Origin: Blautia sp.
GTDB taxonomy: Bacteria; Bacillota; Clostridia; Lachnospirales; Lachnospiraceae
DNA: 64,000 nt
Direction: 5' to 3'
Assembly: GCA_017475035.1 (NCBI GenBank)
Contig: JAFVGK010000163.1
Location: 1-64,000 of the forward strand
Shown here piece after piece: positions 2,435-60,198 of this stretch. The notes beneath the pieces are model-generated. The model was not told the DNA's origin. It worked only from the letters and a program-made list of their open reading frames with translations, and ran no database searches. Every line of letters begins with the position of its first letter. The first letter of the stretch is position 1. Both the position numbers and the translations under genes were made by a program.

Positions 2435-2531
2435 GGAGACTGATTTTGTCTCCGGCAGTCCAACTGCCGAAGCGGCAAAATCGTCATCCGAAGACATTGA
2501 GTCAACCTGCAAAACTGCGTTTTGGGAGGAG
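2435..2531 (+). repeat. Shine-Dalgarno-bearing leader repeat, copy in front of the permease
   Basis: This is a good type copy of the family. It runs from GGAGAC, through a stem in which GATTTTG pairs with CAAAATC around an inner GGCAGT/ACTGCC stem, through the conserved block TCATCCGAAGACATTGAGTC and a small CAAAAC/GTTTTG hairpin, to GGGAGGAG. That last block is the ribosome-binding site of the gene at 2540. The copy is also open in one frame (ETD...AEAAKSSSEDIEST). Relatives are listed at 6966, 10810, 14714, 21181, 24284, 35657, 39135, 50022 and 59911. Confidence 0.9.
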
Positions 2532-2539
2532 AAATAATC

Positions 2540-3466
2540 ATGTCATCCGAAAATCTAAAGCAGGCGGAAAAAAACCACAGGAGACGCAAGAGAAAGCAGG
2601 CATTGGTCGCATACTCCTTTATAGCGCCAAACTTCATAGGGTTTGCCATTTTTACCCTGGGGCCGATTATCCTGGCTTTTATCATAGCCTTCATGGAGTG
2701 GGACGGCAACAATGCCATGAAATTTGTGGGATTACAGAATTTCACAACGATTTTCTCGGAGGATCGCTTTGTGTCTTCTTTACGGAATACGCTGGTTTAC
2801 AGTGTATTCACGGTACCCATTACATTGATCATTGCTCTTGGACTTGCGATTTTGCTGAATCAGAAGATCTGGGGCCGCAATTTCTTCCGTACCGTGACCT
2901 TTTTCCCCTATGTGGCATCTCTGGTAGCTGTAACGGCGGTCTGGAATATGCTGTTTACCCCTGCCAAGGGTGGTATTATGAATCAGTTTTTGATGAATGT
3001 GCTTCATATGGCGCCTTCCAAATGGGCTGCTTCACCCAAAACAGTCATGCTTACGATCATCATGTTTTCCGTCTGGAAAAATATGGGATACTACATGGTT
3101 ATCTATCTGGCCGGGCTGCAGGGGATCAGTGAGGATCTTTATGAAGCGGCGAGCCTGGACGGGGCAAACGCGCTGCAGCGTTTTTGGTATGTCACTGTTC
3201 CCCAGCTGCGTCCGACCACGTTTTTTGTCTCCATCATGCTGACAATCAATTGCTTTAAGGTGTATGATATCGTATATATGCTGGCTGGCGGCTCCAATGG
3301 CGTCATCAACAAGAGCGCGATTGTTATCGTTTATTATATCTATGAAGAGGCGTTCCGCAACTGGAAGCTGGGCAAAGCTTCTGCTTCCGCCATTATACTG
3401 TTTGCGATTGTACTCGTTATCACCCTGATCCAGTTCCGGGGCGAGAGAAACTATGCAAACGATTAA
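2540..3466 (+). CDS. CUT1 sugar ABC transporter permease, MalF/UgpA type
   Basis: The 308-residue inner-membrane permease has a basic cytoplasmic N terminus (KNHRRRKRKQ), about six membrane segments and the EAA loop EAASLDGANALQRF that docks the ATPase. The ATG at 2540 is preferred over an in-frame TTG at 2522, because the TTG overlaps the GGGAGGAG ribosome-binding site supplied by the leader repeat. It pairs with the permease at 3480. No ATP-binding subunit is encoded in the locus, so a shared MsmK/MalK-type ATPase elsewhere is expected. The transported substrate is inferred from the hydrolases downstream. Confidence 0.92.
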   Translation: MSSENLKQAEKNHRRRKRKQALVAYSFIAPNFIGFAIFTLGPIILAFIIAFMEWDGNNAMKFVGLQNFTTIFSEDRFVSSLRNTLVYSVFTVPITLIIALGLAILLNQKIWGRNFFRTVTFFPYVASLVAVTAVWNMLFTPAKGGIMNQFLMNVLHMAPSKWAASPKTVMLTIIMFSVWKNMGYYMVIYLAGLQGISEDLYEAASLDGANALQRFWYVTVPQLRPTTFFVSIMLTINCFKVYDIVYMLAGGSNGVINKSAIVIVYYIYEEAFRNWKLGKASASAIILFAIVLVITLIQFRGERNYAND

Positions 3467-3479
3467 GGGGGTGGGAAAG

Positions 3480-4316
3480 ATGAGGAGCAAAACGTTTCAC
3501 AGGCGGCTGGGAAAGTTTGTTGTGTATGCGCTGCTGATCCTGCTGGCCGTAATTATGCTGATTCCTTTTATCTGGATGCTTTCGGCGTCTCTCAAATTCA
3601 ACAAGGATATCTTTGTCATTCCCTTTGCCTGGATTCCAAAGAATCCGCAGTTTCGGAACTACGTGGATATCTGGAAAAAGATACCTTTGGCAAGGTTCAC
3701 CTTGAATACGGCAAAGCTGACTGTGATTGTCACGCTGCTGCAGCTGTTTACTTCCAGCTTCGCAGCCTATGCTTTCGCGAAGCTGCAGTTTAGAGGAAGG
3801 AATGTTCTCTTTCTTGCCTATGTTGCTACCATCGCTGTACCGTGGCAGGTATACATGGTACCCCAGTTCATGTTCATGAGAAGCCTGGGGCTTGCGGATA
3901 CCCATCTGGCTATTATTATCCTGCAGGCATTCTCTGCTTTTGGCGTGTTCCTGATGAGGCAGTTCTATGAAGGAATACCGGATTCCCTTTGTGAAGCAGC
4001 CAGAATCGACGGGATGAATGAATACCAGATTTACGCACAGATCATGCTGCCCCTGTCAAAGCCTGCATTATCAACGCTGATCATTTTTACTTTTGTAAAT
4101 ACATGGAATGATTTTTTAGGACCATTGATTTACCTGACTTCAGAGTCCAAGAAGACCTTGCAGATCGGATTAAAAATGTTTATTTCACAGTATTCGGCAG
4201 AGTACGGGCTGATTATGGCAGCCTCGGTGCTGTCCCTGATTCCGGTGCTGGTCGTTTTTCTTGCTTTGCAGAAGTATTTTGTTGCCGGCATAACCACCGG
4301 GGCCGTAAAAGGATAA
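3480..4316 (+). CDS. CUT1 sugar ABC transporter permease, MalG/UgpE type
   Basis: The 278-residue inner-membrane protein has about six membrane segments and the EAA motif EAARIDGMNEYQIYAQIMLP near residue 180, which contacts the ATPase. It ends in GITTGAVKG, the typical MalG-family C terminus. The ATG at 3480 lies just after GGGGGTGGGAAAG; an in-frame ATG at 3453 would overlap the end of the previous gene. It is 13 bases downstream of the partner permease and 20 bases before the GH88 gene, which indicates one operon. Confidence 0.92.
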   Translation: MRSKTFHRRLGKFVVYALLILLAVIMLIPFIWMLSASLKFNKDIFVIPFAWIPKNPQFRNYVDIWKKIPLARFTLNTAKLTVIVTLLQLFTSSFAAYAFAKLQFRGRNVLFLAYVATIAVPWQVYMVPQFMFMRSLGLADTHLAIIILQAFSAFGVFLMRQFYEGIPDSLCEAARIDGMNEYQIYAQIMLPLSKPALSTLIIFTFVNTWNDFLGPLIYLTSESKKTLQIGLKMFISQYSAEYGLIMAASVLSLIPVLVVFLALQKYFVAGITTGAVKG

Positions 4317-4336
4317 GACGAGAAAAAGAGGAAAAA

Positions 4337-5585: not shown

Positions 5586-7745
5586 ATGAAATTCGAAAAC
5601 AGAGATTATGTTCTCAGTCCCTATACGGGTCTGACACGGGAACACTGGATATCAGCGGGCAGGACGCTCCTTGAGGGAATCTTCCGGCATATTCCGGATG
5701 AAGACGCCCCGGTGATCGTGGCACGGAAGGAAATGAAAGTGACATATCCGCACCTCGATGCACCGGAAAATGTGCGGCAGGCAGAGCAGAAGGCGGAAAT
5801 CTTTGAAGGATTGACGCGCTCCTTCCTGATTGCTTCGGTACTGCTTCATGAAGACCCGGAACTGAAGGTACACGGCATCAGTCTGGCAGAATATTACCGG
5901 AAGCATATTCTTCGCAGCTGCTGTGAAATAGATCATCCGGAGTATGTAGGCACCTATGATGAGATGCAGGAGCTGACCGCTCATAAGGATCCTTTTCGCC
6001 CGTTTCAGCAGACGGTGGAAACCTGTGCTTTGGTAATCGGTCTTTGGGCCAGCAGGAGCGAAGTCTGGGAGAAATATACCCGAGAGGAAAAAGACAGGAT
6101 AGCAGGGTTTTTGTCCGGGTATGCCAAAGCGAATACGGTACCCCAGAACTGGCGGCTTTTCAACATGCTGGACATGGCTTTTTTATATCAGGAAGGCTAT
6201 GAAACAGACAGAAATATCATGCGGGAGCATGCGCAGGCTATTCTGGCTTATGATGCATGCGACGGCTGGTATCGTGACGGACATTCCTTTGATTATTATT
6301 CCTGCTGGGCGTTTCAGTTTTACACTCCTTTGTGGAATCTGTGGTATGGTTATGAAAAGGAACCCTATCTGGCTGCCAGGTTTGAAGAGAATTCCAATCT
6401 GCTGATGGAAAATTACCCTTTCTTCTTTGACAGGGAAGGGTTTACCAATATGTGGGGGCGTTCCGGAATTTACCGAAATGCTTCCACGAGCGCTCTTGAC
6501 GCGAATTTTCTGCTGCGTAATCCGACGCTGAATCCCGGTCTTGCCCGGCGTATCTGTTCCGGCAGTCTGCTGCAGTTTTTTGAACGGGATGATTTTCTTT
6601 GGGAAGGAGTGCCTGTCCTGGGTTTTTACAGGCAGTTTACCCCTCTGGTCCAGGCTTATTCCTGCGCAGAGTCGGTCTTTTGGCTTGGCAAGGCCTTTTT
6701 TTGCCTGCATCTGCCGGCTGATCATCCCTTCTGGACCAGCACGGAAGAGAACGGAATCTGGGGAAAGCTTCAGCCCCGGGAGGTACATGAAACGATCCTG
6801 GACGGTCCGGCGCTTGCGGTTACCAATCATGAGGCCAACGGCGCAACTATCCTTCGTACCGGCAAGGCTGTGAAACAGGCGGATGATCAGCATGGGATGT
6901 GGGCCTACGCGAAGCTTTGTTATCATACCAAGCTTCCCTGGGAAGCGGCTCCCGCGGTTCTGAAAGAGACAGAGCCTGTCTTTGGCAGCCCGGCTGCGGA
7001 AGCAGCAGAATCGTCAACCGAAAATATGAAGTCAACGGACAATAAAGCGTCTTTAATCCGTCAGGATGTGGAATCCCAGCAATATGTGCTGGAAGATCTG
7101 TCAATCCCCGGTTTTCAGCGTGGAAATGCTGTGTTCTGGCATGGAACTTCAGAAGGCGTTCTGTACCGGCGGCAGTTTTTTGACTATGTGCCGGAAAAAG
7201 AATGTCATTGGCTGCATGCTGTCAATCTTGCTGACTTCCCTGTCCCCTACGGACTTATGCGGGCTGATAAACTCCGCCTTTACAAAAGACCTATGCGGAT
7301 CACCCTGGGGGCCTATGGCTTTCCGGATAATGGGACAAAAATCAGCCGCCTGAAATGTGGGAAAGCCAGCGCGATTTTATTGGAGGGGAGAAATCACTGT
7401 CAAATCCCGTTTTCCATGGCCATGACTATTTATGATGGCTGGGACAGACTGGAATATCTGCACAGCGTCGGCAGTAATCCGGATTCCGAAAGGTCTGTTC
7501 TGGTATATGCCTCGGCAGACCGGCTGAGACAATATGATGCCTCAGAGCCATATGTCATGATTTCGCAGGTGATCACCCGTACGGATGGAAATGACTTTAC
7601 GGAAGATGATATTTTCCCGATTCGGGAGATCAGATATACAGATGATACGCATACGGGAGCGTATGGCCCCATTACAATCATCCTGAAGGACGGGACAGAG
7701 CGCAGGATCAGTTTTGATAAAATAGAAGGCAGAATGCTGCTTTAA
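5586..7745 (+). CDS. DUF2264-like carbohydrate-active protein with an in-frame repeat insertion
   Basis: The 719-residue protein resembles DUF2264 proteins, found with GH88 and lyase genes in gut bacteria; members have been linked to a glucuronidase family (GH154), an assignment I recall but cannot verify here. The N-terminal ~400 residues are rich in Trp and Tyr helices typical of an (alpha/alpha) barrel (WYRDGHSFDYYSCWAFQFY, WGRSGIYRNAS), followed by a beta-rich C-terminal half. There is no signal peptide. Residues ~461-488 (ETEPVF...AEAAESSTENMKST) are encoded by a copy of the leader repeat inserted without breaking the frame. It lies 37 bases after GH88 and 23 before the sensor kinase. 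Confidence 0.75.
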   Translation: MKFENRDYVLSPYTGLTREHWISAGRTLLEGIFRHIPDEDAPVIVARKEMKVTYPHLDAPENVRQAEQKAEIFEGLTRSFLIASVLLHEDPELKVHGISLAEYYRKHILRSCCEIDHPEYVGTYDEMQELTAHKDPFRPFQQTVETCALVIGLWASRSEVWEKYTREEKDRIAGFLSGYAKANTVPQNWRLFNMLDMAFLYQEGYETDRNIMREHAQAILAYDACDGWYRDGHSFDYYSCWAFQFYTPLWNLWYGYEKEPYLAARFEENSNLLMENYPFFFDREGFTNMWGRSGIYRNASTSALDANFLLRNPTLNPGLARRICSGSLLQFFERDDFLWEGVPVLGFYRQFTPLVQAYSCAESVFWLGKAFFCLHLPADHPFWTSTEENGIWGKLQPREVHETILDGPALAVTNHEANGATILRTGKAVKQADDQHGMWAYAKLCYHTKLPWEAAPAVLKETEPVFGSPAAEAAESSTENMKSTDNKASLIRQDVESQQYVLEDLSIPGFQRGNAVFWHGTSEGVLYRRQFFDYVPEKECHWLHAVNLADFPVPYGLMRADKLRLYKRPMRITLGAYGFPDNGTKISRLKCGKASAILLEGRNHCQIPFSMAMTIYDGWDRLEYLHSVGSNPDSERSVLVYASADRLRQYDASEPYVMISQVITRTDGNDFTEDDIFPIREIRYTDDTHTGAYGPITIILKDGTERRISFDKIEGRMLL
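6966..7050 (+). repeat. Leader repeat copy inside the DUF2264 coding sequence
   Basis: The copy starts GAGACAGAGCCTGTC, carries the stem GGCAGCCCGGCTGC and the blocks AGCAGAATCGTCAACCGAAA and AAGTCAACGGAC, and decays before the Shine-Dalgarno end. It is read in the same frame as the copy at 24284-24381, so both proteins contain related peptides (ETE/DxVFxS..AEAA..SSTEN/SSEDM). The divergence from the type copy suggests an old insertion. Confidence 0.8.
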
Positions 7746-7768: not shown

Positions 7769-9547
7769 ATGGATCAGGAGAATAAACAGGAAAAGAAGAA
7801 AAAGACGTTTGTCCATTCCATCCGCACCTATGTGCTTTTGTGGGCTGTTGGCTTTGCCACAGCCCTTGCTTTGCTGGTGTCGGGCATCAGTTACGGTCTG
7901 ACGCAGAAATATCTGAAGCAGACCCAGCGGCAGACGGCCATAAACAGTGTTCAGCTGCTGGGCAGTGAGATCGGGGCGGATCTGGATGATGTCATAAAGC
8001 TGGCTAACTGGATCTGCCTGGATCATACAATCAGTGATTGCCTCAGACAGATGGGACAGGCAAAAGGAGCAGACCGATCTGCCGACAGCCTGCGTACGCA
8101 GTCGGTGGAAGCATGGAATCATCTGAGCGCGGAGCTGAATGCTTCCAGCATCCGGAGCCTGCTGCGGCGTGTGATTGTATCCGTCCCGGACGGAAGCAGC
8201 TTTTTGCAGATCATTCCGGTTTATGACTCGGTGAATCTGAAACAGGGTGCCCGTCTTCTGACGGAACAGGGTTATTTTTCTCAGCTGCTGACAGCCCGGG
8301 ATTTTACCTGGATCGGATTGACAGAATGTATTCTGAGTCCTTTTTATCCGAAAAAAATCATCCCTGTGTTCCGCCCGATCCAGAGCAGTACCTCTACCCA
8401 GGTGGTAGGATGGGTTTATCTGGAAATATCACAGGACCTGGCCGGAAGGCGGCTGGAAAATTATACAATCGCCGAAGATGAAAGCCTTTACCTTACGATA
8501 GGGGAAGGCGGAACGTATCGGTATGAAAAGGGAGAATTTACAAAGGAGGAGCTGCCCCGGGAGGTGGTTTCCTATCAACTGCCTTCCTGCGGATGGCAGG
8601 TATCTCTTCTTCCTTCGCGTCTGGAGCTGAGGGAGCGAAGCCGTTATGATCTGCTGATGATCTCGGTCATCTTTTTTGCGATTCTGATGGCGGGAGCATG
8701 GATGGCACATTCTTTGCGAAGGGTGATAACCCGTCCGGTAACGGCGCTGCTGGAAAAGCTGGACAGGATCGGGCAGGGGGATTTTTCTGCTGATCCCTCG
8801 ATAGAATGGGATAATGAACTGGGAGAAATCGGCAGGGGGATCAATCATCTGTCCGAAAATGTTTCTGCCCTGATGGAAAAAAAGGTGCAGGATGAAAAGA
8901 CGCGTCAGGAGCTGGAATATCGCGTTCTGCAGTCTCAGATCAATCCCCATTTCATGTATAATACCCTGAATACCATCAAATGGATGGCGACGATCCAGGG
9001 GGCCGAAGGGATTGCGGATATGTCCACGGCTCTTTCCCGTCTGCTGAAGAATGTTTCCAAAGAAACAGCCGGCCTGATTCCGGTCAGGAAAGAGTTCAGC
9101 CTTTTGGATGATTATTTTACAATCATGAAGTATCGGTATGGCGGAACGATATCGCTGGAGTATGAGATTGAAGATCCTGACCTGCTCTGCTGCCTTGTGA
9201 ATCGCTTTTGCCTGCAGCCTATTGTGGAGAACGCCATTTTCCATGGGATTGAACCGAAGGGCGGGGCCGGAACCATCCTGGTTCATCTGTATCAGAAGGA
9301 AAGGATGTTGATGCTGGAAGTGAAGGACAATGGAGTCGGAATGGATGAGGCTACCATTCATCGTGTCCTTGCGGGCAGTGCGGAGGACCCTAATGATTTT
9401 TTCAGGCAGCTCGGGATCGCGAATGTGGATCAGAGAATCCGCCATTCCTTTGGAGATGCTTATGGGATCGTGATTGAAAGTGAACCGGGAAATTATACGA
9501 TGATGCGTCTGCGCTTTCCGGTGATCAGGGAGGCTGAAGCATTATGA
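7769..9547 (+). CDS. YesM-type sensor histidine kinase
   Basis: The 592-residue membrane kinase has a first membrane segment at ~23-46, an extracytoplasmic sensing domain of ~250 residues, a second segment at ~294-315, a HAMP linker and a His_kinase module with the phospho-acceptor H394 in INPHFMYNTLNTIKWM. An ATPase domain follows with the N-box PIVENAIFHG and G-box DNGVGM. It is expected to sense the glycan or its binding protein and phosphorylate the regulator at 9544, whose ATG overlaps its TGA. Placement inside the operon implies autoregulated induction. Confidence 0.93.
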   Translation: MDQENKQEKKKKTFVHSIRTYVLLWAVGFATALALLVSGISYGLTQKYLKQTQRQTAINSVQLLGSEIGADLDDVIKLANWICLDHTISDCLRQMGQAKGADRSADSLRTQSVEAWNHLSAELNASSIRSLLRRVIVSVPDGSSFLQIIPVYDSVNLKQGARLLTEQGYFSQLLTARDFTWIGLTECILSPFYPKKIIPVFRPIQSSTSTQVVGWVYLEISQDLAGRRLENYTIAEDESLYLTIGEGGTYRYEKGEFTKEELPREVVSYQLPSCGWQVSLLPSRLELRERSRYDLLMISVIFFAILMAGAWMAHSLRRVITRPVTALLEKLDRIGQGDFSADPSIEWDNELGEIGRGINHLSENVSALMEKKVQDEKTRQELEYRVLQSQINPHFMYNTLNTIKWMATIQGAEGIADMSTALSRLLKNVSKETAGLIPVRKEFSLLDDYFTIMKYRYGGTISLEYEIEDPDLLCCLVNRFCLQPIVENAIFHGIEPKGGAGTILVHLYQKERMLMLEVKDNGVGMDEATIHRVLAGSAEDPNDFFRQLGIANVDQRIRHSFGDAYGIVIESEPGNYTMMRLRFPVIREAEAL

Positions 9548-10818
9548 TATACAAAGTTCTGATCGTGGATGATGAGCCTCTGGTGCAGATCGGGCTGAAA
9601 TCCATACTCTCTCAGGGAATTTCACAGGTGGAAGTGACAGGTACCGCTTCTAACGGCGAGGATGCTCTGGATCAGATCGGCAGACTGCAGCCGGATATTG
9701 TGATTGCCGATATCAGGATGCCTTTGATGTCCGGCCTGGAGCTGCTGAAAGAATCCCGCAGGAAGTATGGGGCGGTTCCTGTTTTTATTATGCTGACTGC
9801 CTACGAAGAATTTGAAATGGCAAGACAGGCACTTTCCGGCCAGGCTGTGGATTATCTGGTTAAAATCGAATTGACGAAGGAACTGCTGAACCGTTCCCTG
9901 GAAAAGGCAATCGTGCGCCTGGATGAGGTGAGGCCGAAAAAGGAGCGGGAAGATAACGGGACATCTACACTGGAAGATCTTCAGCAGAAATTTATGGTAC
10001 GGTTATTGAATGGACAGCTGCAAAACAGGGAAGGGCTGATCAACCAGGCAAAAGAATTAAACCTGGATTTTCATTATGACCGTTATGTTGCTGCGTATGG
10101 CAAAATAGATGGCGGAAATACATCGGGGAATGCTTTCGTCCTGTATACTTCCTGCCTGAATATGACCAGGGAGATTGTGAGACGGTATCTTCCCTGTCAC
10201 GTGGTTTCCAATGATCTTCAGCATTTTACACTGATCTTTCTCTTTGAAGCAAGCCGGGCTATGGCTGATATGATGACCTTGATTCAGGAAGCGGTCGATA
10301 ACACAAGGGATATGGTGGACCGTTATTTCAACGTTTCCCTGTATTTCGGCATCGGCGTAGCCGTAACGGATCCCATGGATATCCCGGACGCTTTTAAGGA
10401 GGCAGTTGCGGCACAGGAGCATGCGGACGATAACAGTCCGGTACGCCTGTTCAGCCATATCGTAGGGGCAAACCGCCGTTCCGGTAAGGATCGGCTGATT
10501 GCCTCGATCCAGGATTATATCAATGAAAACCTTGGGGGAAAGCTTCAGCTGAACGAAGTGGCAGAGGTTTTTGGCCTTTCTCCGGCATATCTTTCGGTTA
10601 TTTTTAAAAAGAACACCGAGATTGGCTTTTCGGAATATGTCTATACACAGAAAATCGAAAAAGCCAAAGAAATGCTTTTAAGCGGCGACATGAAAATATA
10701 TGAAGTGGCAGATGCCCTGGGGTTTGAATCCGCTTTTTATTTTTCAAAGGTATTTAAAAAGGTTGACGGCAAGAGCCCCAGAGAATATATCCAGAGCAAG
10801 GAAGGGCAAGGAGACTGA
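9544..10818 (+). CDS. YesN-type response regulator with AraC DNA-binding domain
   Basis: The 424-residue protein has an N-terminal receiver domain with the acidic pair DDE near residue 9, phospho-acceptor D56 in DIVIADIRMP and K105 in DYLVKI. A middle region of ~180 residues precedes a C-terminal AraC/XylS domain with two helix-turn-helix units (LNEVAEVFGLSPAYLSVIFKK and IYEVADALGFESAFYFSKVF). It overlaps the kinase gene by four bases. The probable target is the promoter at 856. Its stop codon lies in the first bases of a leader repeat, so the last residues GQGD may derive from the insertion. Confidence 0.93.
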   Translation: MIYKVLIVDDEPLVQIGLKSILSQGISQVEVTGTASNGEDALDQIGRLQPDIVIADIRMPLMSGLELLKESRRKYGAVPVFIMLTAYEEFEMARQALSGQAVDYLVKIELTKELLNRSLEKAIVRLDEVRPKKEREDNGTSTLEDLQQKFMVRLLNGQLQNREGLINQAKELNLDFHYDRYVAAYGKIDGGNTSGNAFVLYTSCLNMTREIVRRYLPCHVVSNDLQHFTLIFLFEASRAMADMMTLIQEAVDNTRDMVDRYFNVSLYFGIGVAVTDPMDIPDAFKEAVAAQEHADDNSPVRLFSHIVGANRRSGKDRLIASIQDYINENLGGKLQLNEVAEVFGLSPAYLSVIFKKNTEIGFSEYVYTQKIEKAKEMLLSGDMKIYEVADALGFESAFYFSKVFKKVDGKSPREYIQSKEGQGD

Positions 10819-10870
10819 TTCTGTCTTCGGCAGCCTGCTGCCGAAGCAGCAAAATGCTTGCATTGACAAA
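10810..10870 (+). repeat. Truncated leader repeat between regulator and lyase genes
   Basis: GGAGACTGATTCTGTCTTCG, the stem GGCAGCCTGCTGCC and AAGCAGCAAAAT match the first half of the family. The second half is reduced to ATTGACAAAAAGAGATG. The copy begins at the end of the regulator gene and ends next to the ATG at 10876. Confidence 0.75.
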
Positions 10871-10875: not shown

Positions 10876-12879
10876 ATGAAAAGAGATTTATTTAAAACCC
10901 TGTTGTCAGGGAAGAAAGCAGAAGAGATCGATAAGATGGCCCTGGAAGACTGGCTGGCATTTCCGGACGTGGAGAAGCGGACAGTCTGGGAAAATCTGGA
11001 ACCGGAACTTACGGAAGAGCTCATCAGGGCAGGGAGGAAGGCGAAGGAAACGGATTTTCCTCAATTGCTGCTCAGCGATTACCGGGAGCTTTCCCGGAAC
11101 GGCTGCCGCGTTCATTTTGAAGACAAATATTTCCTCCGCCGCAGACTGGTCACCAGGCTGACTGTGGCGGAATGCGTGGCGGATAACGGAGAATTTCTCG
11201 GAAAAATAACAGACGGTCTGTGGATGATTCTGGAAGAAACCTCCTGGTGTCTTCCGGCGCACAACAGCTATATACGTGACACGCCTTTTTTGCCGGTTCC
11301 CGATCCTGCAAGGCCGGTGATCGACCTGTTTGCCGCGGAGTCGGCGGCGATCCTGGGGTTAAGCGAATATCTTTTACGTTCCCGTATGGAGAAGGTCAGT
11401 CCGGTAATCAGAAAATATCTGGATCAGGAGATAAGGATCAGGATATTGGAACCTTATCTTTCCTATCCCTTCTGGTGGAAAGGGGACGGGGTACAAAAGC
11501 TCCTGAACTGGACGCCCTGGATTACGCAGAACATCCTGACAGCCCTGTTTTCCCGGACTCCTGATTTCTGGAGGGAAGGAGAAAAAAAGGCTGTTCTTTG
11601 CCAGGCGGCGCGCTCACTGGATTATTATCTGGACATATATGGTGATGATGGATGCTGCGATGAAGGCGCTCAATACTTCAGCCATGCCGGACTCTGTCTT
11701 TTTGGGTGCATGGACATTCTGGAACGTATTATGATAAGCATCTCTATGGCTTCGGAACAGGTACGTTCTGCAGCTATGTCTTTGCCGAAAAGCCGGGACA
11801 GGAGCAGAATAAAGGCAGATATGAGAGAGGAGCCTTTCATATCTGCCTTAATGGCTCCTGCACCTGCGCGCGGAGCCGGAAGCGGGGAATGCATGAACGA
11901 TTTGTGGAGGGAACCTCTGATCAGGAATATAGCCGCCTATATTTCCAAGATGTATGTCGGGAACGGATATTACCTGAACTTTGCTGACTGTTCGCCTTTT
12001 CCGGGACATCGTACTGCCAGAGATTTTCTGTTTGGTCTGCGGACAGGAAATGAAAAACTGGCGGCCTTTGCCGCCAGGGACTATCGGGAGCAGGAATGGC
12101 CGGACAGGCTGATGGAGGGAGAAGAAAACCTTTACTATCACATCCTGCAGATTTTTTCTCACCGGAAGCTGATGCAGCAGCCGAACTCTGAGCTCGTTCC
12201 GGAAGATTCCTGGTTTGAGAGTACCGGCCTGTTTGTTGTTCGGGATACCCGTTTTTGTCTTGCTGTAAAAGCAGGCTCGAACGCCGACAATCATAATCAT
12301 AATGATGTGGGCTCTGTGATACTGTACCATGACAACAGGCCTTATCTGATCGACCTTGGTGTCGAGACCTATACCGCAAAAACGTTTTCGGAACGGCGGT
12401 ACGAAATCTGGACAATGCAGTCTGCCTACCATAATCTTCCCACCTTTTATGACGGGGAAAAGGCTGTGATGCAGAAAGACGGAGCGGAGTATCATGCTGT
12501 CATAGCAGAAAAATCATCAGGCAGGGAAAAAGCATGGATTGCAATGGAGCTTTCCAAAGCGTATCCTGATCCCCGTATCATCAGCTATCACAGAAAAGTG
12601 ACCCTCTATAAAGGCAGCAGAGTAGAAATAGAGGATGATTATCGGGGATCGCTTTCCTGTGTTCTTTCCCTCATGACCTATGAAGAACCCGTCTGCGAGG
12701 AATCAGATATACGTGTGGGGGAAATCGGAACCGTTAAATTGGAAGGCGCGGAAAGGATAGAAATCGAACGCTGCCCCATAAGGGATCCCAGATTGGCTGC
12801 CGCATGGAAACACGATTGCTTTCGCATCCGGATCTTCTTTAAACAGGGAAAGCTTCTGGCTGCTTTTTACGGTTCCTGA
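10876..12879 (+). CDS. Heparinase II/III-family polysaccharide lyase-like protein
   Basis: The 667-residue protein resembles heparinase II/III enzymes, which cleave uronic-acid-containing chains by beta-elimination and generate the unsaturated ends that GH88 removes. It has an N-terminal helical half (CDEGAQYFSHAG near residue 258) and a C-terminal beta half with the family motif NADNHNHNDVGS (H473, H475, D477), then LIDLGVETYT and the Tyr-rich stretch that follows. No signal peptide is seen, so it should act on imported oligosaccharides. Between the CLFGCMDIL and REPLIRNI motifs lies an extra low-complexity segment of about 50 residues containing a DNA palindrome (11799-11860). The 3' end overlaps the opposite gene by 13 bases. 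Exact substrate is unknown. Confidence 0.85.
   Translation: MKRDLFKTLLSGKKAEEIDKMALEDWLAFPDVEKRTVWENLEPELTEELIRAGRKAKETDFPQLLLSDYRELSRNGCRVHFEDKYFLRRRLVTRLTVAECVADNGEFLGKITDGLWMILEETSWCLPAHNSYIRDTPFLPVPDPARPVIDLFAAESAAILGLSEYLLRSRMEKVSPVIRKYLDQEIRIRILEPYLSYPFWWKGDGVQKLLNWTPWITQNILTALFSRTPDFWREGEKKAVLCQAARSLDYYLDIYGDDGCCDEGAQYFSHAGLCLFGCMDILERIMISISMASEQVRSAAMSLPKSRDRSRIKADMREEPFISALMAPAPARGAGSGECMNDLWREPLIRNIAAYISKMYVGNGYYLNFADCSPFPGHRTARDFLFGLRTGNEKLAAFAARDYREQEWPDRLMEGEENLYYHILQIFSHRKLMQQPNSELVPEDSWFESTGLFVVRDTRFCLAVKAGSNADNHNHNDVGSVILYHDNRPYLIDLGVETYTAKTFSERRYEIWTMQSAYHNLPTFYDGEKAVMQKDGAEYHAVIAEKSSGREKAWIAMELSKAYPDPRIISYHRKVTLYKGSRVEIEDDYRGSLSCVLSLMTYEEPVCEESDIRVGEIGTVKLEGAERIEIERCPIRDPRLAAAWKHDCFRIRIFFKQGKLLAAFYGS
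11799..11860 (+). repeat. Palindrome within the lyase coding sequence, probable in-frame insertion
   Basis: AAGGCAGATATGA (11812-11824) is perfectly mirrored by TCATATCTGCCTT (11837-11849), and outside it CAGGAGC (11799-11805) is mirrored by GCTCCTG (11854-11860). The hairpin is about 20 pairs with a small internal loop. It falls in the extra segment of the protein, which suggests that a palindromic element entered the gene without breaking its frame. Confidence 0.7.
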
Positions 12880-14705
12880 GTGTCTTGTGTTTTTAAAACC
12901 TTCAGAAGGATATCCCGGGCTTTCTGCGTACGCAGAATACCAAACCAGGATAGTTCCGGATGAGCGCCGGATCTGTTTTCAACAATCCTTATGATGTCCC
13001 CGTAACGCAGCGGGGAAGATAACTTTGCAGGCTCACTGCTTTTATTCAGATAAACGAAAAACCCGGAGAGGCAGCTGGTTCTATAGATTAAAACGAAATC
13101 GAGTACCGTAGATCCCATCGGGATTTCCAGGCGTTCCGTAGGTCTTTCTTTTAAGTAGACATAAGTGGGAGGAGCCGATGATTCCGCCCGTGTTTCCAGC
13201 CAGCGGGACAGGACGTGGACAGCCTCCCGCGTATGCAGATATTCAAACCATCGGATCGTAGCGTGCGGGATATCCTCTTTGTCCGGTTCACGGAAGTGAT
13301 CCGAACGGATCACAACGACATCCCCCGCGTTCAGTCTTGTGTGGATAGGAAACACGCAATGGCTACCGTTTATCATGGCGCCTTTACAGCATAATCCCAT
13401 ATCAGGATTGAGCTTAAAAGCCAGATCAAGGACGGTGGCGCCCTTTTCGATCATGGTTAACTGTCCGTCTTCCAGATACACATGGATTTTGGGACGCTCC
13501 GGTTCGTCCGGTTCCGCAAGATTCAGATAGGGCAGATTCACCGTAGGAGTATTGGACCTGCCGTTCAGACCGAAACCGAAGGTACGCTGCATCAGATCGG
13601 ATTCCGTGGAGATAAACAGACGGTAGCGATTATGAAAACGGTCTTCCAGCAGCAAAAAAGGAGAGGCTGTAGTTTTTGCCTTTCCGAATCCTTTAATGAG
13701 GGTACGAAAACGACTGTGATACAATCTGGGATAGAGCTTCATGAAGATGCGGTATTCTTCTCCCTGGTATTCATTACTTACCGTAAAATGAATATTCATC
13801 AGCGGTACATGCTGTTTATCGATCAATCCCGCGATTTCACCGTGAGTCTGAGTGACCGGAAGATTACGGTATATACTGTCCGCACAGCGTTTGTTGAAAT
13901 GCAGAGACAGAATGCCTTCCCGCTCCTCGGGCTTGGCCACAGCCAACACGTCCCGGAAAAACGACATGAAACCTTCCGGACCTGCAATGCTGTAATAATT
14001 GTCATTCAGGAGCTTCTGGTACCTGTCTGTGATAATGTTAAACAAGGGCTCATTCGTAATCTTCATGCACTGAGTTTCCAACTGCTCGGCAAGAACATAG
14101 ACACCCAATTTATAAGCGGCAGGAAGCAATACATGGAGCGTATGCTGCACTTTGGCTTTTTGCTTCTCTTCCGAAACACAATCAATGGTATCGAGATTGT
14201 GCATACGGTCAGCCAATTTAACAAAAAGAGCGCGCAGATTATGATGTTCTAAGATTTCCTTCAGAAATTTATTATCAGACAGGGCATCCACATCAGCCTT
14301 CTGCATTTCAGGATCGGAAGTCTCCTGGGCAGTGATCTGTGTTACTCCGTAAACGGTTGCCGCTATGACAGGCCCAAAGGCAGCGTTTATCTCTTCAATC
14401 GTACAGTCACAGTCTTCTACGGTATCATGGAGAAGAGCCGCGGCGACGAGCTCACTGTCCAGGCCTAAATCTGCCAGGATATAGGCGACTTCAAGCGGAT
14501 GTGTAAGAAAAGGATCTCCACCTTGTCTTCTCTGCCCGTCATGCTTGATATAAGCAAAATCATATGCTTTTTTTAACAGATCTGTATTAGGTCCCGTTCC
14601 TTTTTTCATAGCATTCAGAACATCCCTGAAACGTTTGTCACAGCTATACTGCTCGGAACGGGAAAGATCGGTATTTTTTCTGTATTCATTATATGGATGG
14701 CTCAT
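12867..14705 (-). CDS. RelA/SpoT-like HD hydrolase with two TGS domains and no recognisable synthetase
   Basis: The 612-residue protein starts with an HD domain like the (p)ppGpp hydrolase half of Rel/SpoT: H69 in THPLEVA, H93-D94 in LLHDTVED and D166/N170 in KLADRMHN. The region where a synthetase should follow (~230-390) lacks the usual GR-x-K and Y-x-S-x-H type motifs. It ends with two TGS-like domains (IHVYLEDGQLTMIEKGATVL at ~407 and TYVYLKERP at ~514), instead of one TGS plus ACT. It may hydrolyse alarmones or other nucleotides. The ATG follows a GGGGAGGAGGG carried by a leader repeat. It lies downstream of, and possibly with, the XRE-like regulator. Confidence 0.8.
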   Translation of the reverse strand: MSHPYNEYRKNTDLSRSEQYSCDKRFRDVLNAMKKGTGPNTDLLKKAYDFAYIKHDGQRRQGGDPFLTHPLEVAYILADLGLDSELVAAALLHDTVEDCDCTIEEINAAFGPVIAATVYGVTQITAQETSDPEMQKADVDALSDNKFLKEILEHHNLRALFVKLADRMHNLDTIDCVSEEKQKAKVQHTLHVLLPAAYKLGVYVLAEQLETQCMKITNEPLFNIITDRYQKLLNDNYYSIAGPEGFMSFFRDVLAVAKPEEREGILSLHFNKRCADSIYRNLPVTQTHGEIAGLIDKQHVPLMNIHFTVSNEYQGEEYRIFMKLYPRLYHSRFRTLIKGFGKAKTTASPFLLLEDRFHNRYRLFISTESDLMQRTFGFGLNGRSNTPTVNLPYLNLAEPDEPERPKIHVYLEDGQLTMIEKGATVLDLAFKLNPDMGLCCKGAMINGSHCVFPIHTRLNAGDVVVIRSDHFREPDKEDIPHATIRWFEYLHTREAVHVLSRWLETRAESSAPPTYVYLKERPTERLEIPMGSTVLDFVLIYRTSCLSGFFVYLNKSSEPAKLSSPLRYGDIIRIVENRSGAHPELSWFGILRTQKARDILLKVLKTQDTQEP

Positions 14706-14713: not shown

Positions 14714-14785
14714 CCCTCCTCCCCTCAAAACGAAGTTTTGTACGTTGACTCAATGTCTTCGGATGATGGTTTTGTTCCTTTCTTC
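14714..14785 (-). repeat. Leader repeat in front of the HD/TGS gene
   Basis: Read on the minus strand, it has CATCATCCGAAGACATTGAG, TCAACGTACAAAACTTCG and TTTTGAGGGGAGGAGGG directly before the ATG at 14705. The 5' hairpin half is diverged or replaced. The CAAAAC/GTTTTG mini-hairpin abuts the ribosome-binding site, as in the other copies. Confidence 0.85.
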
Positions 14786-15920: not shown

Positions 15921-15980
15921 TTGAGTACCTTCCTTTCTAAATTAAATGAATAGATTTAAATGCAACAGATCATCTGATAA

Positions 15981-16120
15981 TATGATTCAGGCGACAGAAG
16001 GTCATGCAAAAATGAGCTCGCTCATTTTTGCATGAGATTGGGTCGCCCACAGACACGAGGAAGCAGCCATTTTGCACTATTTATTCTTGACTTTGCAAAT
16101 CTTTCTGTGCAAAATGAGCG
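15981..16120 (+). repeat. GATTCAGG-family palindromic repeat, partner of 1-140
   Basis: It starts TATGATTCAGGCGACAGAAG, contains the same 15-base palindrome arms (CATGCAAAAATGAGC) and ends GTGCAAAATGAGCG. It is the inverted near-identical partner of 1-140. Downstream, AATGAGCGGATTCCGAGTGG and the GAATCAGGCTTTTGTCGATG block near 16167 recur in part at 25348-25410 and 30190-30280. Confidence 0.9.
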
Positions 16121-16711: not shown

Positions 16712-16747
16712 GCTACTGCACATTCCGATGTTCTCTAAGAAAACAGA

Positions 16748-21180: not shown

Positions 21181-21303
21181 GATTCAGGCGCCAAAAGGTC
21201 ATGTTTAAAGGAGACATATTCTGTCCCGGAGCGTGAAGCGCGACAGGCAGAAAAATAGTCATCCGGACGATATATCGGTTTACAATTAACATTGTAAGAG
21301 GAG
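21181..21303 (+). repeat. Composite of GATTCAGG fragment and variant leader repeat
   Basis: GATTCAGGCGCCAAAAGGTC (21181-21200) is the head of the palindromic family. It runs into AAAGGAGACATATTCTGTCC, a GGAGCGTGAAGCGCGACAGG stem, ATAGTCATCCGGACGATATA and finally AAGAGGAG, a variant leader repeat ending in a ribosome-binding site. The two families meet head to tail here. Confidence 0.65.
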
Positions 21304-23185: not shown

Positions 23186-23189
23186 GCAG

Positions 23190-24386
23190 ATGGGCGAGGG
23201 ATACCTGCGCACAGAGGATCTGAGCGTCGGATATGACAGAAGGGCTTTGATCCGGGATATTTGCCTGGATATCCGCAAAGGCGAGATTATCGTTCTGGCG
23301 GGCCCGAACGGATCCGGAAAATCTACGATATTAAAGAGCCTTACCCGGCAGCTTTCACTCATTTCCGGATCGGTGGTGCTTGACGGAAAAGATCTTGAAC
23401 GGATGAACGGAAAGCTGTTGTCGAAAAAGCTGGCGGTTGTCCTGACACAGCAGATCCGGCCTGAGCTGATGACCTGCTTTGAGATGGTAGCCGCGGGACG
23501 TTACCCTCACACGGGATGTCTCGGGATCCTTACGGAAGAAGACCGGCAAAAGGTGGAAGAAGCGCTCAGAATTGTCCATGCCGGGGAATTGGGATCACAT
23601 TTTTTTCATGAACTGAGTGATGGGCAGAGACAGAGGATCCTGCTGGCACGGGCAATCTGCCAGGAACCGGAGATGATTGTGTTGGATGAACCGACATCTT
23701 TTCTGGATATCCGATATAAGCTGGAACTGCTATCTATTCTCAGAAGCATGTCAAGAGAAAAAAAGATTACGGTCATCTTATCCTTACATGAGATTGAGCT
23801 GGCGCAGAAGTTTGCCGACCGGGTATTGTGTGTGAAGGGTGAGACGATTTTCATGTTCGGACCGCCTGAGGAGGTGTTTGAGGAAAAACGGATCTGTGAG
23901 CTGTACGGGCTTACATCCGGGAGCTATGATCCCTTGTTTGGGAATCTGGAGCTGCCGTCGCCGCAGGGAAAGCCTGAGATTTTTGTAATTTCCGGCGCGG
24001 GGACGGGCATCCGGGTATTTCGCAGACTGCAGAGGGAGCAAAAGCCCTTTCGATGCGGAATTCTGTATACAAATGATGTTGACTATGCCCTGGCGAGGCA
24101 TCTGGCTGATCAGGTCGTCACGGAGGAACCCTTTATGGAGATTTCGGATCAGGCTGTCGCCCTGGCCATGAAAGAAATCCATGCTTCCCGCCAGGTCATA
24201 TGTACCTCTTTTCCCATCGGCAGGATGAACCGCAGAGTTCTTTCCCTGATAAAAGAAGCGGAAAAGCAAAAAAAATTAAAAATGGAGACAGATTCTGTCT
24301 TCGACAGCCAAACTGCCGAAGCGGCAAAATGGTCATCCGAAGACATGGAGTCAACGTACAAAACTTTGTTAAAAGAGGAGGAATAA
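23190..24386 (+). CDS. FecE/BtuD-family ABC ATPase with C-terminal extension
   Basis: The 398-residue protein has an ABC domain (Walker A GPNGSGKST, signature LSDGQRQR, Walker B MIVLDEPTSFLD) and an extra C-terminal domain of ~130 residues (FVISGAGTGIRVFRRL onwards) of a Rossmann-like character, seen in some cobalamin/haem-type importers. The start is the ATG at 23190 after CAGGAGGATAAGC. The last ~34 residues (ETDSVFDSQTAEAA...) are encoded by a leader repeat, so the native C terminus was probably near EAEKQKKLK. The gene ends three bases before the chelatase ATG. Confidence 0.9.
   Translation: MGEGYLRTEDLSVGYDRRALIRDICLDIRKGEIIVLAGPNGSGKSTILKSLTRQLSLISGSVVLDGKDLERMNGKLLSKKLAVVLTQQIRPELMTCFEMVAAGRYPHTGCLGILTEEDRQKVEEALRIVHAGELGSHFFHELSDGQRQRILLARAICQEPEMIVLDEPTSFLDIRYKLELLSILRSMSREKKITVILSLHEIELAQKFADRVLCVKGETIFMFGPPEEVFEEKRICELYGLTSGSYDPLFGNLELPSPQGKPEIFVISGAGTGIRVFRRLQREQKPFRCGILYTNDVDYALARHLADQVVTEEPFMEISDQAVALAMKEIHASRQVICTSFPIGRMNRRVLSLIKEAEKQKKLKMETDSVFDSQTAEAAKWSSEDMESTYKTLLKEEE
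24284..24381 (+). repeat. Leader repeat spanning the end of the ATPase gene and the chelatase ribosome-binding site
   Basis: The full-length copy starts GGAGACAGATTCTGTCTTCG, continues with the GACAGCCAAACTGCC stem and TGGTCATCCGAAGACATGGA, and ends AAGAGGAGG. It does two things at once: it extends the upstream protein in frame and supplies the Shine-Dalgarno of the gene at 24389. Its frame is the same as that of the copy inside the DUF2264 gene. Confidence 0.9.
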
Positions 24387-35656: not shown

Positions 35657-35850
35657 GGAGGCGTATTTTGTCCACGGCTGCGGTTTTTGCAGACGTGGCT
35701 GCAAAATAATCATCCGTGATCATTGAGTCAACGTATAAATTTCGTTTTGGGGAGGAAACTGATTTTCCGCTTCGGCAGCCCGGCTGCCGAAGCAGCAGAA
35801 TCGTTATCCCAAGACATTGAGTCAACATGCAAAACTAAGTCTGGGAGGAG
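35657..35850 (+). repeat. Two tandem leader repeats in front of rodA
   Basis: The first copy (35657-35755) uses the stem variant CCACGGCTGC/GCAGACGTGG inside ATTTTG/CAAAAT. The second (35751-35850) uses CTTCGGCAGCC/GGCTGCCGAAG inside the same closing bases. The GGGGAGGA at the junction ends one unit and begins the next. The second copy ends CTGGGAGGAG, the ribosome-binding site of rodA at 35862. Confidence 0.9.
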
Positions 35851-39134: not shown

Positions 39135-39183
39135 ATGGCAGCAAAATTGTCATCCGAAGAAATTGAGTCAGATAAAGGAGGGG
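39135..39183 (+). repeat. Half leader repeat before the HlyD-like gene
   Basis: GGCAGCAAAATTGTCATCCG, AAGAAATTGAGTCAGATAAA and GGAGGGG match the second half of the family. The 5' hairpin half is missing or has been replaced by the terminator at 39102. The GGAGG is the ribosome-binding site of the TTG start at 39188. Confidence 0.8.
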
Positions 39184-49605: not shown

Positions 49606-50010
49606 TTATAATGTCTCAAAGCCTTTAGCGGCCAGGCAGGCCTCTACCTCGTAGATATCCGCGGTATGGACAATCATGATCGGCATGCCGCTGTCACGGT
49701 TAAAAGAAAGATAAAGGTAATCCGCGTTGATGTTGCTGTCAAGCATAGCCTGAAGAAGCTTGTTGAGATTTCCTACCTCATCTTTGACTTCGATGCCCAG
49801 GACATCTGTCTGCTTGCAGATATATCCGGCCTTCTGCAAAGCCTTGATGGCCCCATCCGTGTCGGAAACAACCATTCTGATAATCCCGTATTCGGCGCTG
49901 TCATTCGTTACGGATCCAAGGATATTGATTTTCTCTGCGGCAAGTACGCTGGTGATTGTGTAAAAGGTTCCTTTTTTATTTTCGGCAAAAATAGAGATTT
50001 GCTTTAACAT
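49606..50010 (-). CDS. Tandem ACT-domain protein
   Basis: The 134-residue protein consists of two ACT domains (~1-66: LKQISIFAENKKGTFYTITS; ~70-134: VLGIEVKDEVGNLNKLLQAM). ACT domains bind amino acids, so a ligand-sensing role is likely; the enzyme partner is unknown. Translation starts at ATG 50010, after a GGGAGGAGG from the leader repeat at 50022-50126. The recombinase gene is downstream and may be co-transcribed. Confidence 0.88.
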   Translation of the reverse strand: MLKQISIFAENKKGTFYTITSVLAAEKINILGSVTNDSAEYGIIRMVVSDTDGAIKALQKAGYICKQTDVLGIEVKDEVGNLNKLLQAMLDSNINADYLYLSFNRDSGMPIMIVHTADIYEVEACLAAKGFETL

Positions 50011-50021: not shown

Positions 50022-50126
50022 TCCTCCTCCCAAAAACGAAGTTTTGTACGTTGACTCAATGATAACGGATGACTATTTTGCAGCCACGCCTTCAAAAAAC
50101 GCAGCAGTGAGAAAAATATGTCTCCT
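50022..50126 (-). repeat. Full leader repeat in front of the ACT gene
   Basis: On the minus strand, GGAGACATATTTTTCTCACT, a GCTGCG...TGGCTGC stem, AAAATAGTCATCCGTTATCA, TTGAGTCAACGTACAAAACT and TCGTTTTTGGGAGGAGG occur in this order, then the ATG of the ACT gene 11 bases on. This is one of the best-preserved copies with both hairpins. Confidence 0.9.
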
Positions 50127-50189
50127 CATAAAAAGATAAAAAGCAAATTATAAATTGATATACCGTTCAGATGACGATTTTGCTGCTGT

Positions 50190-50286
50190 TATACTCGTGA
50201 ACGCATTTAACTGCCGCTTTCGGATTGAAAAGGGAGCGCGTTCACTTGTTATACGTTGAGCAGATCGGAAGGCATTTCCGTTACCG
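50190..50286 (-). repeat. GTTCAC-family repeat, copy 2
   Basis: The reverse complement of 2263-2358, with about four mismatches. The remaining gap up to the tRNA (50287-50397) has no gene. Confidence 0.85.
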
Positions 50287-50397
50287 GGTATAAGTAACGG
50301 AGTTTATTATAGCACAATTGAGCGGGTAAGAGAAAGAGCAGAAAAAGAAAAAAAATACTTGCATTCCCCAAAAAGATGTGGTAAACTGTCTTGCGTT

Positions 50398-50605: not shown

Positions 50606-50765
50606 CTCGGCTCATCATATCCTTAGCAGGCGGACGGATCGATGTCACAATGAGCGATGCATTTAGAAAAATAACAGACTCCCACGGGAGATGGCTCGGC
50701 AGTTATTTTTCTGCAGAGCGAATGTGACATCGATGCCGGGAGCCGGTGCAGGCCCATAAGCCGAG
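50606..50765 (+). repeat. MITE-like nested palindrome, CTCGGCT family, copy 3
   Basis: CTCGGCTCATCATATCCTTA starts the copy and the AAGCCGAG end closes it. The arms GATCGATGTCACAATGAGCG and GAGCGAATGTGACATCGATG are conserved; the centre is short. It lies between the tRNA terminator and the terminator of the lacI-type gene. Confidence 0.85.
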
Positions 50766-50786
50766 AGTCAAGCTTAATCTCAATAA

Positions 50787-55398: not shown

Positions 55399-55416
55399 TC
55401 AGAGAGCTTTACGTAT

Positions 55417-59179: not shown

Positions 59180-59192
59180 ATTTGCAGGATGG

Positions 59193-59228: not shown

Positions 59229-59286
59229 GTTCACTGAGCCGCTCATTTGCATGTAAAGTCCGTTAATGAGAAGTGATAACCTGACG

Positions 59287-59515
59287 CTCGGCTTCAGGGC
59301 CTGCAAGGGCTCCCGGATCGATGTCACATTCGCTCAGCCGAAAAATAACAGCCGAGCCATCTCCCGTGGGAGACTAAAGGTGTGAGGTGTCTCCGGAAGA
59401 GCCGGAGCCACCTCACGCCTTAAGTCTCCCATCGGTTTCAGTCTCGTCAATTATTTTTCTGATGCGTCGCTCATTGTGACATCGATCCGGGAGCCGGTGA
59501 AGGTTATGAGCCGAG
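59287..59515 (-). repeat. MITE-like nested palindrome, CTCGGCT family, copy 4 (long form)
   Basis: This copy is in reverse orientation relative to 351-577 and has the long central stem (GGGAGACT...AGTCTCCC). The 229-base length and paired ends CTCGGCTTCA and GAGCCGAG match copy 1. Confidence 0.88.
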
Positions 59516-59559
59516 TTGTGTGTTGAAAGAGATTCGGAGCTTTAATTGGTAAGGTGACG

Positions 59560-59645
59560 CTCGGCTTCGAGGCTTGCACGGGCTCCCGGATCGATGTCAC
59601 ATTCGCTCAGCCGAAAAATAACAGCCGAGCCATCTCCCCTGGGTA
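59560..59645 (-). repeat. Truncated CTCGGCT-family element
   Basis: Only one arm is left: CTCGGCTTCGAGGCTTGCAC, ATCGATGTCACATTCGCTCA and CCGAAAAATAACAGCCGAGC. The other arm is missing, so the copy is broken. It lies next to the full copy in the same direction. Confidence 0.8.
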
Positions 59646-59713
59646 CTAAAGATACGAGATGAAAGGCGCGAGATGACTCCGGTACATCAAAATGAAATCC
59701 GTTGAAAAAACAC

Positions 59714-59742
59714 TTGACAAAAAGCAAATCAAAGCATATACT
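59714..59742 (+). promoter_or_regulatory. Strong sigma-A promoter upstream of the TasA-like operon
   Basis: TTGACA (59714-59719) and TATACT (59737-59742) have 17 bases between them, close to consensus. A start near 59749 gives a leader of ~500 bases that includes the three tandem leader repeats. From 59750 to 59910 I see only A/T-rich sequence with repeated GACAAAAAG-like words, no gene. Confidence 0.8.
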
Positions 59743-59910
59743 TATTGTACATCAATTCAAAGATATTCATTCGAATATTTGACTCCACAATTAAATGAAA
59801 CTTAATATGGCAAAATAAGACAAAAAGTACTAAAAAACGACAAATTCCGCCAAAAAGTGTTGTTCTGTATGGCCTGGTGGATATTATTCTGCCTTTTTGA
59901 CTTTTTTTAT

Positions 59911-60198
59911 GGGAGATTGATTCCGTTTTCAGCATGGGAGGCGTCGGAACGATAAAATCATTGCCCCAAAAAAGAGTCAGCGTACAAAACCTCGTTTTGG
60001 GAGATATATTTTGCCCACAACTGTGTTTTTTGCAGGAATGGCTGCGATATTAGTCATTCGAGATCGTTGAGTCAGCGTCCAAAGCTCCGTATGGGAGGAG
60101 ACATGTTTTGCCCACAGCTGCGTTTTCTGCAGGCGTGGCTGCAAAATAGTCATCCGTGGGCATTGAATCAGCGTAAAAAACTTCGTTTTGGAAGGAGG
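59911..60198 (+). repeat. Three tandem leader repeats before the TasA-like operon
   Basis: Copies lie at 59911-60003 (diverged), 60000-60100 and 60095-60198. The second and third share the stem variant CCCACAACTG/CAGG and CCCACAGCTGC/GCAGGCGTGG within TTTTG/CAAAA. Each ends with GGGAG or GGAGG that starts the next copy. The last ends AAGGAGGTGATTCC, a full match to the anti-Shine-Dalgarno, but the first long gene starts only at 60250, about 50 bases on. Confidence 0.88.

Follow-up and report, generated by a model that had tools for sequence, protein, structure and literature searches.

A window of 64,000 nucleotides from Blautia sp. (assembly GCA_017475035.1, contig JAFVGK010000163.1, positions 1 to 64,000) carries copies of a repeat of about 97 nt that starts at one GGAG and ends with another. 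We consider it highly probable, from sequence comparison, that this repeat is a small non-autonomous mobile element, with GGAG in a fixed orientation as its target and the Shine-Dalgarno (SD) sequence of a gene as the usual surviving target. A sequence-only reading of the window had proposed integration at SD sites with re-creation of the SD, and this is supported by the position of the copies, by the profile of their left flank and by the GGAG found at most element-free sites. That reading had also proposed two refuting tests, on placement relative to start codons and on GGAG at empty sites, and neither went against it. As a rule, mobile elements escape harm by inserting between genes. The present one occupies the site at which a gene is most sensitive and appears to mend this through its own end, several hundred times in this one genome.

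The genome of origin (G000) has 5.08 Mb in 200 contigs, being 93.6% complete and 5.0% contaminated. We searched it with a covariance model (R1) built from 30 genome copies, 5 of them in the window, and also ran a second model (R2) and nhmmer. Such a search had been suggested by the sequence-only reading, and it reveals an element far more common than the window shows, with at least 150 matches in the genome, every one at E < 1e-9. A closer survey took in 837,752 bases, namely the window and 40 stretches of large contigs (838 kb). In this DNA, 127 matches to R1 (E up to 0.5) and 101 to R2 (E up to 0.01) were counted, including a few palindromic shadows on the opposite strand. About 100 copies are present in the 838 kb; even extrapolation leads to about 600 genome-wide, a rough estimate since the surveyed stretches are long contigs already known to hold copies. 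With nhmmer we obtained 118 distinct hits, 100 with a complete 3' end, and 85 of these have no following copy (array-terminal).

In terms of placement, 67 of the 85 array-terminal copies end 2 to 19 nt before the start of an open reading frame (ORF) of at least 60 codons, termed here the SD position. As a control, 7655 GGAGs outside elements in the same DNA were scored alike, with 499 in SD position, 990 at other non-coding sites and 6166 in coding sequence (4468 sense, 1698 antisense). The SD share is 6.5% of all these GGAGs and 34% of the non-coding ones (499/1489). Compared with that 34%, the copies are not random relative to start codons (SD versus other non-coding sites, Fisher odds ratio 12.1, p 1.6e-20, taking copies as independent). 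A home-made hexamer method of gene prediction, which uses no SD information, places a gene start within 60 nt of 57 of the 67 SD-position copies. The spacing from copy to start peaks at 8 nt, the same as in element-free genes. Considering intergenic hits of any length, the next gene lies on the strand of the element in 102 of 107 (two of the 107 have no upstream gene in the stretch).

An explanation that we put slightly below an even chance is that the element is specific for GGAG with no preference for SDs, so that any GGAG is hit and mostly insertions at SD sites survive selection. Some copies do lie in genes or elsewhere between genes, and GGAG alone would suffice as the target. However, only 34% of non-coding GGAGs are in SD position versus 67 of the 78 non-coding array-terminal copies, and this reading would need strong selection against insertion at the other non-coding GGAGs. 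The AA-GGAG context lifts the natural SD share only to 48%, under a slightly different SD definition.

The left flank of the copies speaks for SD sites as targets. Among 76 first copies, A is found at positions -3, -2 and -1 of the left GGAG in 50, 54 and 57%, compared to 41, 49 and 53% at natural SDs (339) and 30, 27 and 27% at other non-coding GGAGs (1141). Because this flank has the A-rich profile of natural SD sites, the host SD is very likely split by the element, with its AAA-GGAG half staying upstream. In several operons the left GGAG comes directly after the upstream stop (e.g. TTATTAA|GGAG before hslO), and the right GGAG a few nt before the next start.

Element-free sites in relatives mostly show the expected GGAG. 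At a junction of DppB- and DppC-like genes, our genome reads ATACGGAAGGAG, 93 nt ending in GGAG and then GGCTGACAGATG, where the congener G043 reads ATACGGAAGGAGGCGTAGATCATG, that is ATACGGAAGGAG|GCGTAGATCATG. Both keep the reading ..DPRIRKE.. and a distance of 9 nt from GGAG to ATG. At a permease/ATPase junction, our genome has AAAAGGAG, 93 nt and GTGGACTGATGCTGG, and the metagenome-assembled genome (MAG) RUG12916 has GGAAGGAGGTGCGCTGATGCTGG, that is GGAAGGAG|GTGCGCTGATGCTGG. These two empty sites carry AAGGAG| at the junction, so that GGAG is present in two of the three relatives compared at base level. For three further genes the insertion point was inferred from SD spacing only. Before purE, the element is absent from the 70 nt preceding the start in 20 of 20 syntenic relatives and GGAG is present in 19 of 20, both counted by eye. 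GGAG occurs within 20 nt in 20/20 relatives at purM and in 17/18 at the gene at L092:14905, whose upstream neighbour we take to be a Clp-like ATPase. As for hslO, the stop-to-start distance of 111 nt in our genome amounts to 14 nt without the 97-nt insert, and in 29 relatives it ranges from -4 to 328 nt. The neighbourhood of the CbiK gene in the window is unconserved among relatives, and its comparison yielded no empty site. A larger hairpin repeat on contig C118 was considered as a paralogous empty site within the genome; its left side is rearranged and the case was not used.

The full-length copies are mostly 91-107 nt long and fall into types A, B and C. Type A typically has 93 nt inserted 3' of the target GGAG and type B about 97 nt. 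A left hairpin takes in the 5' GGAG, and a small right hairpin is followed by GGGAGGAG. Both hairpins are backed by covariation across species, with 83 double-changed cells versus 29.8 in shuffles and none of 500 shuffles as high. A core 18-mer has 5 matches at up to 3 mismatches, compared to 0.06 expected. Inspection of the consensus shows that the hairpins are subterminal and that terminal inverted repeats are absent, the ends GGAGACTGATTTTG and TTTTGGGAGGAG not being inverted copies of each other. The family looks old, judging from a nearest-neighbour identity among 76 copies of at most 97%. Short derivatives of about 40 nt (GGAGACATTGAGTCA..) were also seen in G000 (C105:62452-62491 and C3:63865-63908), with the left hairpin missing, as if by a GGAGAC-to-GAAGAC deletion.

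Tandem copies were said to share their GGAG, and this is exactly so at 9 of 15 junctions of neighbouring copies; 5 others overlap by 2-3 nt in local alignments and 1 has a gap of 1 nt. CTCC was found at the left junction in none of the hits with a left end, and therefore the orientation to the target is fixed. Tandems, empty sites, flank profile and junction scan together describe an element that enters on the 3' side of one fixed tetranucleotide, in a single orientation.

The GGAG on both sides resembles a 4-bp target duplication, and a small repeat devoid of a transposase gene could be a classical miniature inverted-repeat transposable element (MITE) moved by a DDE transposase, whose duplication happens to be GGAG. 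We rejected this explanation, which is improbable, on the missing inverted repeats and the fixed orientation: there is one target sequence in one orientation, and no left junction reads CTCC. Less probable again is a leader RNA with a conserved cis-regulatory role (a riboswitch or translational control element) common to a regulon. In favour of it, the element is structured, covaries and mostly stands closely ahead of a start codon in sense orientation. However, the downstream genes are unrelated, copies occur in tandem arrays and within coding sequence, and the orthologs at the sites compared are element-free, where a cis-regulatory RNA is conserved with its gene across species. With the curated thresholds, no Rfam family matched the element in the window, and a permissive search of two stretches gave only weak chance matches, all with E above 0.05. 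A regulatory RNA family was rejected on these grounds. Lastly, spread by recombination or gene conversion between SDs with no recombinase would draw on the short GGAG homology at both ends, on old and diverged copies and on the failure to find an enzyme, and we give it the least credit of all, as four bases are too little homology for conversion, the flanks are unrelated and hundreds of exact-ended insertions would seem to need a specific reaction.

Under the preferred reading of a mobile element that inserts at GGAG, an insertion would add 93 nt for a typical type A copy, or about 97 nt for type B, immediately after the target on its 3' side, bringing the element's own end GGGAGGAG. The host SD would be split, with a new GGAG as far from the start codon as the old one had been. 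The left hairpin would tend to bury the old GGAG in the mRNA through pairing of its GGA with UCC at the foot, and the new one would stay more accessible for translation to continue. Partition-function folding of the 50 of 67 SD-class copies with complete ends, with ten plain shuffles each, predicts a mean unpaired probability of 0.26 for the old left GGAG and 0.46 for the new right one, versus 0.38 and 0.38 with the interior shuffled (p 4e-5 for left and 0.011 for right against shuffles; left versus right, 1.3e-5). The host gene can probably still be translated after insertion, since the predicted fold tends to hide the old SD and to leave the new one more open. The movement itself may be a single-strand, hairpin-recognising (HUH/Y1-like) reaction supplied in trans by an enzyme that may be lost. 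It is proposed because of the absence of terminal inverted repeats, the subterminal hairpins and the strand-specific insertion 3' of a tetranucleotide. These features are reminiscent of the single-strand reactions of IS200/IS605 and REP systems. By this analogy, a Y1-type enzyme is a tentative candidate for the mobiliser, one that we lean slightly against rather than towards.

Several observations weigh against this reading. Outside SD position there are 18 of the 85 array-terminal copies, 11 otherwise intergenic, 5 in genes in sense and 2 antisense. Only 41 of 76 first copies have an exact left GGAG, and the MAG RUI485 has AAAGGCG|GTGGACTGATGCTGG at the permease/ATPase site, with GGCG in place of GGAG (one of the three base-level relatives). 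The empty sites come from relatives, with none from within the species, and no fresh insertion was available. The right GGAG is intact in 65/67 copies of the SD class, and also in 16/18 non-SD copies and 15/15 internal tandem copies; as non-SD copies are equally intact, this gives no demonstration of selection on the new SD. The GGA/UCC foot forms in 7 of 8 sequences folded at minimum energy, being missing in the copy at 24284, and the tail with the new SD is partly paired in 4 of the 7 sequences that hold it. An upstream predicted gene crosses the left junction in 18 of 95 left-end hits, and the frames (GAG frame 10, third frame 3, and 5 in the frame with a stop inside the element) do not depart from chance.

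On the same side stands the search for the enzyme. No transposase with the ends of the element was seen, and the genome, at the completeness given above, has one Y1_Tnp fragment, located at a contig end. Matches to Y1_Tnp occur in 37 of 64 genomes, which are incomplete; element ends are absent beside the 30 loci checked with R2, the fragment included, and beside six Y1 loci of relatives checked with a pattern. No clear pair of the IS200/IS605 type of guide complementarity was found in the consensus, by eye only. As for an autonomous version, no pair of left-only and right-only ends lies within 3.5 kb of each other in the 838 kb. Y1 transposases with longer frames (217-277 codons, a length like that of RAYTs, the REP-associated tyrosine transposases) were observed in G044 (L285), G069 (L287), G010 (L283) and G051 (L284), with no element ends adjoining. 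Both G044 and G069 have such a transposase as well as the element.

A wider view, which we hold at a little less than even, is that of a selfish DNA lineage homing to translation-initiation sites. The SD would be its recombination target, its ends would regenerate the SD, its hairpin would hide the old one and its type A consensus has no stop in two of the three frames; insertions into SDs, into operon junctions overlapping coding sequence and sometimes into genes would thus be survivable. The element can serve as a natural test of how much an mRNA leader tolerates in front of the start codon, and as a lead to a putative recombinase with SD specificity.

Among known systems, insertion of IS200/IS605 elements is strand-specific. 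The sections of PMC6006769 available to us describe IS200/IS605-type elements with subterminal hairpins, no inverted repeats and a fixed tetranucleotide flanking the left end. The present element resembles non-autonomous derivatives of this peel-and-paste group in its subterminal hairpins, its lack of inverted repeats and its insertion beside a fixed tetranucleotide. It differs in that target and right end are both GGAG, target function is regenerated and no TnpA with these ends was found. Repetitive extragenic palindromic (REP) elements, in the portions available of PMC6006769 and PMC8266576, have a GT[AG]G tetranucleotide and TnpA-REP. Like REP/REPIN (TnpA-REP, RAYT), ours are species-specific hairpin repeats of extragenic DNA, present in many copies and bearing a conserved tetranucleotide at the foot (same portions). 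Unlike REP, it has GGAG in place of GT[AG]G, again at the 3' end in the same orientation, measures about 97 nt and lies mostly in SDs. REPs have GTAG or GTGG at the 5' foot of a hairpin of 21-65 nt, whereas here a GGAG foot belongs to an element mostly above 90 nt. In REP systems a TnpA-REP gene is flanked by copies; here no RAYT was beside copies at the Y1 loci checked and none was found in the element's own genome.

ERIC and Correia-type repeats are structured, intergenic and near genes. Structured intergenic repeats near genes are also known in pneumococcus as BOX, RUP and SPRITE, for which the part of PMC3049150 at hand does not report SD insertion with SD re-creation. Rickettsia palindromic elements (RPE) are small palindromic repeats in unrelated genes, according to the part seen of PMC10969869, and some copies of our element are also in coding sequence. 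RPEs are mostly in-frame ORF insertions, whereas the element is in genes for 7 of the 85 array-terminal copies (5 sense) and its main site is the SD; the two are set apart here by site of insertion. That review of bacterial MITEs covers in-frame insertions, and the same part has no occurrence of "Shine" or "ribosome binding"; PMC3733652 has none of "GGAG" or "Shine". The sequence-only reading knew of no such element, and searches of openly licensed papers turned up no description of one that enters SDs and forms them anew (subscription journals were outside these searches).

Regarding coding sequence, the type A insert typically amounts to 31 codons. Two frames of the type A consensus are free of stops, the GAG frame (E-TDFVFGSPTAEAAKSSSEDIESTYKTSFWE-E) and one more. 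The reading frames of three upstream proteins (C132:34536, C143:24284 and C94:29568) run on through the element and stop 6-9 nt past it. By sequence comparison, the end stop of the C132:34536 and C94:29568 proteins is the stop of the uninserted frame, because the empty sites show it, and we infer the same origin for C143:24284. The DppB-like permease has the predicted C-terminal tail ETDFVFGSSAAEGAKPSSEDIEPTDQSSLREEG, and the element would be a source of C-terminal protein extensions in operons. Among the 118 hits are 14 ungapped type A copies, whose changes in the GAG frame divide 57/51/51 over the three codon positions. We do not claim selection at protein level on this frame, with no codon-position bias and an excess of open copies of about 2 standard deviations (11/14 versus 7.7 +/- 1.7 expected from random changes). 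A preference for stop-free frames at the left junction (10 GAG, 3 third and 0 stop of 13) was withdrawn; it had come from a criterion that excludes the stop frame, and the recount given above is at chance by estimate. One predicted gene of G000 holds three tandem type A copies in the GAG frame (C143:98509-98783, L083), roughly 90 added codons.

In other genomes of the genus, R1 matched at E <= 1e-6 in 7 of 64, the own genome included (6 of 63 congeners). The copies number at least 16 in G050, 7 in G062, 6 in G060, 6 in G069, 4 in G044 and 1 in G018, and these are lower bounds from the best 65 candidates or fewer per genome under strict filters. They are species-specific versions with the same architecture, such as GGAGACATATTTTGTCTCAGAGGCGAAGCCGATGAGGTACAAAATAGTCATCCGACAACAGTATGTCCGTATATACTTCGTATAAGAGGAG in G062. 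The start codon of a long ORF lies within 19 nt in 22 of 25 congener copies checked (of 40), the exceptions being L240, whose coordinates may be off, L242 and L247. The last two, from G062, are not before a gene and are followed by a similar stretch (TCA.AGGG.CAGGTTCC), perhaps from insertion beside another repeat. Among 392 genomes from the order, a match was found in the own genome only, a weak result that covers the best 10 candidates per genome under strict filters. The exact core pattern had no match in GTDB r220 contigs (the own records possibly lie outside that search), which is also weak because congener copies need not fit the pattern. Viral contigs gave no match by exact pattern, nor did blastn find one in phages (types A and B) or plasmids (type A only).

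Within the window, ten loci had been named as copies. The covariance model finds 9 of the 10, and for the pair at 35657 it gives the second copy, at 35754; the first was recovered by R2 and nhmmer, and the middle array copy at 60000 by nhmmer. The element is present at all ten, with three loci incomplete: only the left part of a type A copy at 10810..10856 (+), where a stop inside the copy ends the upstream ORF 9544-10818, only the right part of a copy at 14719..14775 (-), and a 35-nt core fragment with the right end gone at 39137..39171 (+), the weakest locus (39135; 21.5 bits, E 0.005).

Six loci lie directly before genes recognised by Pfam and unrelated to each other, as had been reported. 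The full-length type A copy at 2435..2531 (+) provides the SD GGGAGGAG 8 nt before the ATG at 2540 of a transporter permease gene (BPD_transp_1, 2540..3466, +), and the right part at 14719 is directly before an HD/TGS gene (12867-14705). The type A copy at 24284..24380 (+) is read through by the upstream ORF 23151-24386 and is the SD source for the CbiK chelatase gene (24389-25342). In the tandem pair, a type B copy (35657..35756, +) abuts with its left GGAG the stop of the upstream ORF, and a type A copy (35755..35850, +), overlapping it by 2 nt in local alignments, gives the SD of an FtsW/RodA gene at 35862. The type B copy at 50024..50125 (-) precedes an ACT-pair gene (49606-50010). The core fragment is upstream of an HlyD-family gene (TTG 39188), whose SD is not the tail of the element, contrary to the claim, since only the 35-nt core is left.

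The other full copies are not before clear long genes. The type A copy at 6965..7060 (+) lies within a 719-codon ORF (DUF2264) and is read in the GAG frame, and the type C copy at 21210..21303 (+) is followed by the ATG of a 25-codon ORF at 21308. A triple tandem array (59912..60003, 60000..60100 and 60097..60197, all +, the third of type B), in which the middle copy has exactly 4 nt in common with each neighbour, is followed by the TTG of an 8-codon ORF, with the next long ORF from 60250.

The window also contains other repeats. One of them, seen at 15983-16180 and 1-143, is matched once in the window by Clostridiales-1 RNA (RF01699). Roughly twelve more copies of the matched stretch (about 15980-16205), 95-99% identical and some of them at contig ends, occur in this genome, which suggests a mobile or amplified repeat more than a lone small RNA gene. 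A large-hairpin repeat (GTCACAATGAGCGACGCATT..TTATTTTTC..GAGCGAATGTGACATCGATCC), with tips that vary by copy, is found at 340-780, 16640-16715, 50615-50770 and 59271-59643, and a copy of it on C118 contains a GGAG element copy. Finally, a 104-nt inverted pair with 95% identity (2256-2359 and 50189-50292) lies near two GGAG elements, and C112 has a 99% copy.

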